From positions 1 to 40,717 of the forward strand of contig CACNWU010000007.1 in assembly GCA_902624185.1 (NCBI GenBank): a stretch of DNA of 40,717 nt, read 5' to 3'. The translations under genes and the position numbers were made by a program. A model generated the notes under the pieces. The model was not told where the DNA came from and made no database searches. It worked only from the letters and a program-made list of their open reading frames with translations. The DNA comes from an uncultured Pelagibacteraceae bacterium. GTDB lineage: Bacteria > Pseudomonadota > Alphaproteobacteria > Pelagibacterales > Pelagibacteraceae. Each line of letters opens with the position of its first letter. The stretch's first letter is position 1. Positions 2,639-33,904 of this stretch are shown here, piece after piece.

Positions 2639-5631
2639 GATCTAACTCTTTCACCCTTTGGATCAACATAATGTGAAGAAACAATCTCAACTGGGATAAC
2701 TTTATTTTTTAGTGGGGACATTACAAATAATTTCTTACCAATCATATTTTTTCCATCTTTTACAATAGCTAAAGAAAATGGATTATCATGTTCAACGCTC
2801 CAACACGAAGCTGAAATATATCCTAATTTTGGATTTGGTAATGGCGCATTTGAGTCTTTAACTAAATGGGATCCTTCTGGAATACTTGTTTTTTTATCTA
2901 AAGGAACAACACCAACAACTTTTTGTCTATCTTCAGCTGTAAATGCCTCTCTATTTAAAGATCTTTTTCCAATAAAATCTTTCTTTTTACTTAATAAACC
3001 TTCAAGAGAATTATCATAAGGAATCGTTCTTCCATCAAGCTCTGATCCTGCTACATGTCCCATCTCAATTCTTAGAGTTGATAGAGCCTCTGTACCATAT
3101 GGCTGGATCTTAAATTCTTGACCAACTTCCATAATCTTTTCCCACATAAAGTTTCCATTATCTGACTCAACATTTACCTCAAATGCAAGTTCACCCGAAA
3201 ATGAGATTCTAAAAATTCTAGCCTTAACTCCAAACAAGTCTCCCTCCATATAACCCATAAAAGGCAAGGCCTCATTTGATACATCAGATTTTGGAAATAA
3301 TTTTTGTAATAATTCTCTTGATTTTGGTCCAGCTATTGCGGCCCCTGCCCATTGTTCTGTTGTTGAAACAACATTTACATTCAATTCTGGCCAAACTAAT
3401 TGTAAATAATATTCTAAGTGTGATAGAACGTTTGCAGCTTGTGCAGTGGTAGTTGTCATATGATAATGATTTTCAGAAATTCTTGTAGTTGTTCCGTCGT
3501 CCATTACAATCCCATCTTCTCGTAACATTACGCCATATCTTGCCTTACCTACAGGTAACTTTAACCACGCATTGGTATAAACTCTATTAAGCAATTCTGC
3601 AGCATCTGGACCTTTGATATCTATTTTTCCTAATGTAGTTACATCACAAACACCAACATTAGTTCTTACATTTTTTGCTTCTCTTTTCGATCCTTCAAAT
3701 AAACTTTCATTCCCTTGCTTGTAATATCTTGGTCTTAACCATACTCCTGCATCTACAAAAACTGCATTATTTTTCTCATGCCATGAATGCATTGGAGATT
3801 TTCGTGTTGGTTTTGAATGTTTTCCAACCTCTCTTCCAACTATTGCTCCAATTGAAACTGGAGAATATGGAGGTCTAAATGTTGTATGACCTACAGCTGG
3901 TACAACTTTGTTTTCTATTTTTGATACTAATTGTAAACCGTTAAGATTACTTGTTTTACCTTGATCAGTCGCCATACCAAGAGTTGTATATCGTTTGACA
4001 TGTTCAATTGATCGATATCCCTCTTTTAAAGCAATTTCTATGTCTGATACTGCAACATCATTTTGAAAATCTAAAAATCTTTTATAATTTTTTCCTTTTG
4101 GAAGTGGAACACACCAAAACTTATCATGAACTGCTGATTTTTTCTCAATTACATTTGGAAAAGAAATTTTATTATCTTTTTTAGTAATTTCTTTTGATAA
4201 TTTATGACCAGTTTCAAATGAATTTTTTAAAGTTTCCTCTAAAGTATATGTTCCATTAGCAGCACCTAAGGTAGTTTCATTTTGCTTTGATTTTCCAGGA
4301 ACAAAAGCATCTATATCTTCTTTAAATTTTGTTTTATTTCCTGATTGTGAAGCTAAATGAATTGTTGGTGTCCAAAAACCAGATACACATATACAATCAC
4401 ACTTAATATTTTCTACTGTTCCAAGTTGGTCTTTATCTTCAGAAATTTTTGCGATATCAGCTGATTTAACTTTTTTATAACCTTGAGCAGCTACTACTAC
4501 ATAAGAAAACTTAATATTTATTCCTAGATTTTTTGCTTCATCAACTATTTCAGACTTTGGATCTTTTCTTGTATCTAGAATAATTGGGTTTATACCATTT
4601 TTTTGAAATTCAATTGCAGTTTCATAGCCGCTATCATTATTTGTAAATATCAAAGGATTTTTTCCAACCAACACTCCATAAACTTTTAAATATTCTTTTG
4701 CAGCTGAAGAAAGCATCACTCCTGGTGTATCGTTATTACCAAAAACAATTGGTCTTTCAATTGATCCTGAAGAGATCAGAACTTCTTTTGCTCTTATGTA
4801 CCACAGTCTTTGTTTTGGATGAAATTTTTTTGTTTTTGGTAAATGGTCACTTATTCTTTCAGACATCACCAGCATATTATGATCATAGTAACCGAATACT
4901 TGTGATCGATTTTTAACAGTCACATTTGGCATTTCTTTAAGTTCAGAAATTATACTTTCGGCCCATTCTTTTCCTGATTGATTACCAATATTTACTTCAC
5001 TAGTTAATAATGTTCCTCCAAACCTAGATTTATCTTCAGCTAAAATTACCCTAGCCCCATTCTTAGCAGCGGAATATGCACTCGCTAATCCAGATGGTCC
5101 AGATCCTGTAATCAATAAATCACAATATTCATACTTGTGTTCATACCTCTCTTTGTCATGCTTTATAGACGCAACCCCAAGACCAGCAGCTTTTCTAATA
5201 AAAGGTTCGTAAACTTTAAACCAAAAACTTTTTGGCCACATAAATGTCTTGTAATAAAAACCTGCTGGAAGAAATATTTTTAAAAAATTATTAATCGCAC
5301 CTATATCAAAATTAACGCTAGGCCAACAATTTACACTTGTAGCTTCCAAACCTTCAAAAAGTTCCTGCTCTGTCGCTTTAATATTTGGTTCAGTTTCACC
5401 ATTTCTATACAATTGAACTATTGCATATGGCTCATCAACTCCAGCACCAAAAAACCCTCTAGGTCTATGATATTTAAAACTTCTACCAACTAAATGAACA
5501 CCATTTGCTATCAAAGCTGACGCTAATGTATCCCCTTCATAGCCATAATAAACTTTTCCGTTAAATTTAAATGAAAGTTTTTTATTTCTGTTAATTAGCC
5601 CAACATTTTCTAATCTAAAACTTTGTGTCAT
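2635..5631 (-). CDS. soxA: Sarcosine oxidase-type alpha subunit (SoxA or MgdC)
   Basis: 998 aa, normal for the alpha subunit. The N-terminal ~100 residues are a 2Fe-2S-ferredoxin-like fold ([15 protein letters not shown], then [15 protein letters not shown]). A dinucleotide-binding domain follows with [18 protein letters not shown] (about 172-188) and a second nucleotide-binding part. From about residue 600 onward it is a GcvT-like folate-binding domain ([19 protein letters not shown]; later a [17 protein letters not shown] block). This domain normally takes the formaldehyde-level carbon released by amine demethylation onto tetrahydrofolate as 5,10-methylene-THF. The substrate may be sarcosine or N-methylglutamate. 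It overlaps soxG by 4 bp and touches soxD by 1 bp. Cytoplasmic. Confidence 0.92.
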
Positions 5632-31709: not shown

Positions 31710-33131
31710 ATGTCTGATATAGGTGTAGTTTGGATCAGAGAAGATTTTAGAATTGAAAATAATGCCGCCTTGTCTTTTGCAACTCAAAATCATAATTATG
31801 TGATTGCTCTATACATTTATAATAATTTTGATTATGATAATAAGAGAGAAGCTCAAAAATGGTGGTTATCTAAATCCCTAGAAATTTTCAAAAAAGATTT
31901 ATCGAATTACAAAATTAATCTTCAAATTTTAAAGGGTAATGAATTAGATGTTTTTTCAAAGCTAAAGAAAAAAGATAAAATCTCAATATATTGGAACAAG
32001 GTGTATGAGCCTGATGTAATTGCTAAAGGAAAAAAAATACGTGATATTTTTTTAAAAAACGAGATTAATTTTAAATATTTCAAGGGAAATATTCTTAATG
32101 AGTTTCAGGAAGTCACTAAGAATGACGGTACTCCTTTCAAAGTATTTACTCCATTTTGGAGAAACGCAGAACAAAAGTACATAAATTCCACACCTAACAA
32201 AGATTATAAAATAAAAAAATGTATAAATAGTAAACTATTTTTTAAAAATTGTATTGAACCTAAGGATATTTTACCTAAGAAAAATTGGTTTAAAAAATTT
32301 GAAAATTATTGGGAAGTTTCTGAAAAAAAATCAAAAAATATTCTTAAAAATTTACTAGAAAATAAGATTAAGGAATATGGCAGTAGTAGAGATATTCCAT
32401 CAATAGAGGGTACTTCAAAGTTATCACCTTATATTAAACATGGACAAATACACGTTGGCACTATTTGGAAAAAGTGTAATGAACTTAAATCTAAAGGAAT
32501 TGGTTATCGTAAATATATTAATGAACTCGGTTGGAGAGAATTTTCTCATAGTTTAATTAATTATTTTCCAGAATTTTTAAAAGGAAATTTCAGGAAAGAA
32601 TTTGATAGATTTCCTTGGGTAAAAAATGAAAAATTTTTGAAAGCATGGAAAACTGGAATGACAGGATATCCAATTGTTGATGCTGGAATGAGAGAACTTT
32701 ATGAAACTGGTTGGATGCATAATAGAATAAGAATGGTTGTGGGTTCTTTCTTAGTAAAGCATTTGAGAATTAATTGGACCGAAGGTGAAAAACATTTTCG
32801 AAATTGTCTATTAGATTTTAATAAAGCAAATAATGTAGCTCAATGGCAATGGGTTGCAGGATGTGGTGCGGATGCTGCACCTTATTTTAGAATATTTAAT
32901 CCGATCTTACAGGGGGAGAAATTTGACAAGGATGGAATATATGTCAAAAAATGGGTAACAGAATTAAATAAAGTACCAAATAAATTTATTCATAAACCTT
33001 GGGAAATGGAATTACAATATCAAGAGGCTATTAAAACTATTATTGGAAAAGATTATCCTGCTCCAATCGTAGTGCATGAAAAAGCACGAGAGTCAGCATT
33101 AAATGCTTTCCAAAGTTTAAAAAAAAAATAA
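31710..33131 (+). CDS. phrB: Deoxyribodipyrimidine photolyase
   Basis: 473 aa, normal photolyase length. The N-terminal antenna domain begins IGVVWIREDFRIENNAALSFA. The C-terminal FAD domain carries INELGWREFSHSLI, WKTGMTGYPIVDAGMREL, GWMHNRIRMVVGSFLVKHL and NVAQWQWVAGCGADAAPYFRIFNP, all strongly conserved. The enzyme uses blue light and reduced FAD to split UV-induced cyclobutane pyrimidine dimers, as expected in surface seawater. It starts 4 bp after the lyase gene. The WVAGCGADAAPYF block has Cys and Ala where many members have Thr and Gln, a small variation. Confidence 0.95.
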   Translation: MSDIGVVWIREDFRIENNAALSFATQNHNYVIALYIYNNFDYDNKREAQKWWLSKSLEIFKKDLSNYKINLQILKGNELDVFSKLKKKDKISIYWNKVYEPDVIAKGKKIRDIFLKNEINFKYFKGNILNEFQEVTKNDGTPFKVFTPFWRNAEQKYINSTPNKDYKIKKCINSKLFFKNCIEPKDILPKKNWFKKFENYWEVSEKKSKNILKNLLENKIKEYGSSRDIPSIEGTSKLSPYIKHGQIHVGTIWKKCNELKSKGIGYRKYINELGWREFSHSLINYFPEFLKGNFRKEFDRFPWVKNEKFLKAWKTGMTGYPIVDAGMRELYETGWMHNRIRMVVGSFLVKHLRINWTEGEKHFRNCLLDFNKANNVAQWQWVAGCGADAAPYFRIFNPILQGEKFDKDGIYVKKWVTELNKVPNKFIHKPWEMELQYQEAIKTIIGKDYPAPIVVHEKARESALNAFQSLKKK

Positions 33132-33160: not shown

Positions 33161-33343
33161 TTAAGTTTTTTGTTGAGAACAAATGTCTTTAATAACTGGA
33201 ACATTTGCGCAATCACCACATTTTGTTTGTTGCACAATACAACCATTATCAAGTACTTTTACATCAACAACTCTATCGCATTTTGAACAAATGGATGTAA
33301 CTGTTAACCCGCATTTTTTACAATTATAGTTTTGTGTTTCCAT
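33161..33343 (-). CDS. Cys-rich zinc-ribbon-like mini-protein
   Basis: 60 aa with eight cysteines, six of them in CxxC pairs: NCKKCG, ICSKCD and KCGDCA, plus single Cys in DNGCIV and KDICS. This pattern suggests one or two metal-binding ribbons. No family is recognised. It lies on the minus strand, converging on the photolyase with a 29-bp gap. A Fur-box-like palindrome is centred about 55 bp upstream of its start (33389-33407), suggesting metal-responsive expression. Confidence 0.65.
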   Translation of the reverse strand: METQNYNCKKCGLTVTSICSKCDRVVDVKVLDNGCIVQQTKCGDCANVPVIKDICSQQKT

Positions 33344-33388
33344 ATTTTAACTTTATGACTTACAAAACTTTTTACAATTTAAATTTGA

Positions 33389-33407
33389 GTGAATGATAAT
33401 CATTCTC
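33389..33407. promoter_or_regulatory. Fur-box-like palindrome
   Basis: The 19 bases at 33389-33407 read GTGAATGATAATCATTCTC and match 16 of 19 positions of the classical Fur box, including the full central 13 (AATGATAATCATT). The core is a perfect 7-1-7 inverted repeat, GAATGAT-A-ATCATTC. It lies upstream of the Cys-rich mini-protein on the minus strand and downstream of yjbQ, so the mini-protein is the likely target. Confidence 0.65.
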
Positions 33408-33484
33408 ACACTTTTTTTAAATAATCTGAAAATTACTTTAAAAAGTTTTTTAGAATGATTACTATTAACTATTAAAACTTAAAA

Positions 33485-33904
33485 TTATTCACCTAAGAAG
33501 TGATGAATTACTTTTCTAATTGTAGGCGCCAATCTATGTTCAAAAAGATAAATTCCCTGCCAGTTTCCCAATAAAAGTTTTCCACTTTTAATACTTAAGG
33601 TAATTTGATTATTAGTTAAGGAGGATTTTATATGTGCAGGCATATCATCTTTACCCTCACTAATATGAGTATATAAAGACTTATCCATAGGCACCAACTT
33701 ATTAAAATAATCTATTAAATCTTTCTGAACATCTGGATCAGCATTTTCCTGAACAATTAAAGATGCGCTAGTATGTTGTATATTTAAATTTAATATACCA
33801 TTTTTGAAATCGTTTTTTTTTATCCAATTAATTGTTAAATTTGTAAAATCATAAAGTTTTTGACCATTAGTTTTAATTTGTAAATCAAAGAACTTTTGTT
33901 TCAT
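33485..33904 (-). CDS. yjbQ: YjbQ / UPF0047 family protein
   Basis: 139 aa, full family length. Typical blocks: NLNIQHTSASLIVQENADPDV (about 40-60), then HISEGKDDMPAHIKSSLT and LLLGNWQGIYLFEHR near the end. The conserved histidines in these blocks form the putative metal site. Members such as E. coli YjbQ show weak thiamine-phosphate synthase activity, but the physiological role is unsettled. It follows zapE by 3 bp on the same strand and is last in that run. Confidence 0.9.
   Translation of the reverse strand: MKQKFFDLQIKTNGQKLYDFTNLTINWIKKNDFKNGILNLNIQHTSASLIVQENADPDVQKDLIDYFNKLVPMDKSLYTHISEGKDDMPAHIKSSLTNNQITLSIKSGKLLLGNWQGIYLFEHRLAPTIRKVIHHFLGE

Follow-up and report, generated by a model that had tools for sequence, protein, structure and literature searches.

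A conserved Fur-type operator and promoter accompany the gene of an eight-cysteine mini-protein in Pelagibacteraceae, a probable overlooked member of the SAR11 iron regulon

SAR11 bacteria live where iron is very scarce and have few regulators; the Fur targets described for them are iron transporters. The SAR11 Fur boxes reported in PMC4771312 lie before iron transport genes only, and strain HTCC7211 is counted there among the genomes without an apparent Fur box. Expression of sfuC rises 16-fold in iron-limited HTCC1062 (PMC2864753), and sfuA and sfuB rise in HTCC7211 under iron limitation (PMC13271415). In Fur systems generally, the boxes of activated genes lie upstream of the polymerase site, whereas those of repressed genes lie on it; the known activating boxes sit about 90-200 bp upstream (review PMC3788343). 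We found that sfu, in the genome studied here as well as in 20 of 24 relatives, has a promoter of the form TTGATA-N17-TA, with a first box on the -35 element and a second 22 bp further on, at the -10. A double Fur box on the sfuC promoter can be seen, for example, at locus L005, positions 3373-3437. The candidate structured RNA upstream of sfu, as cited in PMC2864753, might simply correspond to these inverted repeats.

The window, i.e. the whole stretch of DNA analyzed, comprises 40,717 nt of an uncultured Pelagibacteraceae bacterium (GCA_902624185.1, contig CACNWU010000007.1, positions 1-40,717, forward strand), whose assembly amounts to 917 kb and is 80% complete. An earlier note on this DNA had described a near-perfect Fur box ahead of a gene for a 60-aa protein with eight cysteines, and considered this gene the only well-placed target of the box. 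The open reading frame was confirmed (Table 1), and re-reading of the palindrome, GTGAATGATAATCATTCTC, indeed showed agreement with GATAATGATAATCATTATC at 16 of 19 positions. Its core, GAATGAT-A-ATCATTC, is a perfect 7-1-7 inverted repeat, as the note had stated, but differs from the TGATAAT-n-ATTATCA form of the 7-1-7 model. The assignment to the mini-gene, whose ATG lies 47 bp from the box, also held up, since the upstream neighbor is a co-directional yjbQ-like gene (33904..33485) and the adjoining photolyase gene (31710-33131) is convergent. No paper describing the mini-protein was found among the open-access papers searched.

Table 1. Coordinates of the mini-gene and its upstream elements in the window
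Feature	Position	Strand	Remarks
Eight-cysteine mini-protein gene (family A)	33161..33343	-	60 aa; three CxxC pairs and two single cysteines
Fur-type operator core GAATGATTATCATTC	33391..33405	-	-62 to -48 relative to the ATG
19-mer around the operator core	33389-33407		conserved 21-bp palindrome TGnGAATGATTATCATTCnCA at 33388-33408
-35 element TTGTAA (consensus TTGAAA)	33372..33377	-	-34 to -29; TTG there in nearly all orthologues
-10 element TAAAGT (consensus TAnnnT)	33350..33355	-	16 bp past the -35, 6 nt before the ATG
Weak second box TAATAGTAATCATTC	33453..33467	-	3 mismatches; about 6 helical turns (62 bp) further up than the main box

Allowing up to one mismatch, we found a single copy of the core in the window, where 0.01 sites are expected from dinucleotide shuffles. 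No other site in the 917-kb assembly matches it exactly; the runner-up (one mismatch) is part of the double box before sfuC, an iron(III)-binding protein/transporter gene. A genome-wide pattern scan for further targets was too unspecific at one mismatch. The earlier note had proposed scanning other SAR11 genomes for the box and regarded a lack of conservation as fatal to its suggestion. Matches to the mini-protein were found in 76 of 197 Pelagibacteraceae genomes; about 42 of these matches are close orthologues (family A), the others representing a more distant homologue (family B). The family A orthologues assembled with the genome collection number 121, all with the eight cysteines in register and identically spaced. 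In a non-redundant set of 35 upstream regions, less than 72% identical to one another, a Fur-type box (at most 3 mismatches, within 200 bp) was present in every one, compared to 3% of dinucleotide shuffles. The gene is found in at least nine neighborhoods (photolyase, CFA/lipoprotein, KatG-AspH-DUF2061 and others) and therefore shared flanks do not account for the conservation of the box, which travels with the gene. The observation stood up to the conservation check set by the earlier note. Thus, although the genome is AT-rich and relaxed searches yield about as many sites as shuffles do, the rarity of the core and its presence upstream of all 35 genes, whatever their neighbors, led us to reject a chance palindrome in AT-rich intergenic DNA, to which we give virtually no credence. 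Outside the family, a 1.4-Mb alphaproteobacterial genome (G453; L209, position 1494) encodes a mini-protein orthologue whose sole box is doubtful (3 mismatches).

When the upstream regions were aligned on the ATG, conservation peaked at the palindrome (-65 to -45), at a TTG (-34 to -32) and at a TA (-12, -11). A TTGnnn-N16/17-TAnnnn promoter is present in 35/35 upstream regions, and in 33 of these it ends 6-7 nt ahead of the ATG; a stricter, position-bound search recovered the promoter in 77% of the regions vs. 4% of shuffles. Comparison of these sequences places the box in a dedicated promoter of the mini-gene, a new finding here, and operator, promoter (TTGAAA-N16-TAnnnT) and gene together form what, at the sequence level, is a conserved unit across Pelagibacteraceae genera in at least nine neighborhoods. 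At the level of the operator, the mini-gene has two attributes of a Fur regulon member, a Fur-type inverted repeat near the target promoter and an operator conserved with the orthologues. Since the box always precedes the gene and is coupled to a short promoter of its own, the mini-gene very probably belongs to the small SAR11 iron regulon, where it has been overlooked. Shine-Dalgarno-like motifs are rare (3/35, vs. 14/24 for sfu) and the promoter ends close to the start codon; the mRNA is therefore probably leaderless, with a predicted transcription start at the ATG. The mini-gene does not appear in the printed table of HTCC7211 start sites (PMC5069720). We identified one genome of the collection (G035) as HTCC7211, with proteorhodopsin and acpP at that strain's published coordinates; contrary to the listing in PMC4771312, it has boxes with one mismatch before both sfu (L251) and the mini-gene (L262, 4249-4263).

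The box is centered near -55 in family A promoters, upstream of the -35 and -10 elements and not on them, a layout typical of Fur-activated genes and unlike that of sfu. The distance from the start of the box to the -35 is 28 bp in most cases, leaving the box 13 bp clear of the -35; the clear exceptions, 38 and 49 bp, correspond to one and two additional helical turns. Second boxes in relatives lie 30/31, 41, 50/51 or 60/62 bp further upstream, i.e. near 3, 4, 5 and 6 turns (Rayleigh p about 0.003 for seven distinct spacings, an approximate value as lineages are non-independent and the period was not preset). In four upstream regions, the best box is displaced by 6 bp, which does not fit strict phasing.

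By analogy with known Fur promoters, we prefer activation of the mini-gene, because the sfu box overlaps its promoter, as in a repressor layout, while the mini-gene box lies upstream. Our favored reading, to which we lean only somewhat, is that the Fur operator serves this one gene, that Fe-Fur activates the mini-gene and represses sfu, and that the product is a Cys4 protein of iron or peroxide homeostasis. The palindrome would be a genuine Fur operator dedicated to the mini-gene; Fe-Fur would bind around -55, often with more dimers at whole helical turns upstream, and stimulate RNA polymerase under iron-replete conditions; at sfu, this Fur would act as a repressor via the boxes on the -35 and -10. 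The mini-protein, with one or two putative Cys4 metal centers (zinc-ribbon or rubredoxin-like), would serve in lineages that have KatG instead of rubrerythrin. Against activation, a box placed at -55 could obstruct polymerase as well, and the known activating boxes lie further upstream (about 90-200 bp; PMC3788343). The favored reading as a whole also has to accommodate the four 6-bp-shifted boxes, a genome in which Fur1 was not found (G105) and the poor protein models. The main alternative, possible but in our judgment rather less probable, is ordinary repression, where Fe-Fur bound around -55, possibly polymerized across several boxes, would exclude polymerase or its alpha subunits, and the protein would be made together with sfu under scarce iron for an iron-sparing or metal-handling function. 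Most Fur targets are indeed repressed, and iron limitation induces the sfu operon, which bears the same motif. Repressed promoters often have more than one box, and Fur oligomerizes (PMC3788343). However, the main-layout box leaves the promoter uncovered, 13 bp upstream of the -35, unlike sfu in the same genomes, and its distance varies in steps of full helical turns, a regularity that blocking would not require.

Up to three Fur-family proteins are found in good Pelagibacter genomes: Fur1, whose nearest PDB entries are the Fur chains 5fd5/5fd6 and 4ray/4raz, an Irr-like protein adjoining fabA, and a Zur-like protein adjoining znu. The fabA-adjacent protein is presumably Irr, a name we give it from its position and general knowledge. 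Of 41 relatives checked, 40 have a gene for a true alphaproteobacterial Fur. Only the Zur-like protein was found in the 80% complete assembly of the window, Fur1 not being found, and Fur1 was likewise not found in G105, which has the mini-gene and its boxes. By eye, no link was seen between the length of the Fur1 insert and the presence of the mini-gene. Alphaproteobacterial Fur homologues can respond to manganese. It is thus conceivable, given three Fur-family proteins in most genomes and the two assemblies just mentioned, that Irr, Zur or a manganese-responsive Fur uses the box and that the gene answers haem, zinc or manganese. We consider this quite improbable, as the same motif precedes the iron-responsive sfu and Irr elements differ from the Fur-type box. 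A Zur site was rejected, since the znu region has no Fur-type box and bears another motif, GTTATAATATAACA, between znuA and znuC (L071, 1150-1180), distinct from the Fur box.

Besides the cysteines, the invariant residues of the mini-protein are K10, G12, S20, V26, D27, G34, V37, K41, P49 and D53. Membership of a known family was rejected, as Pfam and NCBIfam matches fell below cut-offs and PDB sequences gave no match. Models built from the single sequence and from 37 sequences were both poor (pLDDT 60-65), and a fold search gave no significant match. With regard to a zinc-ribbon fold, the CxxC pairs are present in the sequence. The earlier note had suggested an iron- or metal-responsive metal-binding protein. 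Fur-type control is supported by the conserved box, the motif shared with sfu and the Fur of relatives, whereas the metal site is one that we infer from the cysteines, since no curated family matched above its cut-off and the models are poor. Family B proteins (63 aa, MATYECSKCGMSVNATC...KSPLCCGQDM) show homology to family A in roughly the first 40 residues (E about 1e-4 to 1e-7) and share CxxC pairs, but end in CCGxDM, reminiscent of desulforedoxin. Family B upstream regions showed no Fur-type operator, with one weak 3-mismatch match at -19 from the start codon. The two families never occur in the same genome among the 42 tested, and family B was accordingly rejected as a same-genome partner of A. 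Family B is present in other SAR11 genera and other Alphaproteobacteria (L056-L070, L210, L212). A phage origin was rejected in the absence of family A or B relatives in viral contigs.

Among 42 genomes, counted without correction for shared ancestry, KatG is present in 18/18 high-quality Pelagibacter carriers of family A and rubrerythrin in 0/21 carriers, while 17 non-carriers have rubrerythrin; two genomes (G134 and G174) have KatG and neither family A nor rubrerythrin. Ferritin-family matches were rubrerythrins only. In a 1,308,759-bp genome (G026), the site after irr is occupied by rbr, an Fe-S protein gene and DUF3501, and in other genomes by katG, an AspH-like gene, DUF2061 and often the mini-gene. 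These two sets are near-exclusive alternatives in Pelagibacter (L260, 2169-5103; L261, 1939-5337), and the mini-protein accompanies KatG even where its gene sits elsewhere in the genome. The association may reflect shared ancestry. An extended version of the activation scheme, in which Fe-Fur activates the leaderless gene from about -55 and the iron-loaded product, together with KatG, replaces rubrerythrin in lineages lacking a ferritin-like protein, seems unlikely to us. Control of katG or irr by the same box was rejected, as the loci read contained no box even when 2 mismatches were allowed. A DUF2061-like small membrane protein repeatedly adjoins the mini-gene, up- or downstream and in varied contexts (L262, 4311-4772; L058), and is a possible partner of the mini-protein; it also occurs near some family B genes.

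If our interpretation is correct, the mini-gene, a conserved non-transport target with a promoter layout opposite to that of sfu, would give the iron signal a second output. It would also be a candidate for marking the iron status of SAR11 lineages. HTCC7211 is a cultured carrier of the gene that can be iron-limited with ferrichrome.

Like rubredoxin, desulforedoxin and small zinc ribbons, the mini-protein is short and has CxxC knuckles, but its eight cysteines have a spacing of their own and it has no significant match to a curated model or solved structure. Like the SAR11 Fur regulon (sfuABC, FTR1), the mini-gene has the 15-bp inverted-repeat motif, which is frequently present in multiple copies. 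It differs in being a non-transporter target, outside those reported in PMC4771312 or PMC2864753, and in having its box upstream of a leaderless-type promoter, whereas the sfu boxes lie on the -35 and -10. With Fur-activated promoters (Neisseria norB, E. coli ftnA and Vibrio ompT; PMC3788343), it shares a box upstream of the polymerase site; here, however, the box is much closer (center about -55), at a near-fixed distance and helical phase, and the gene, for which activation is predicted, is probably leaderless.
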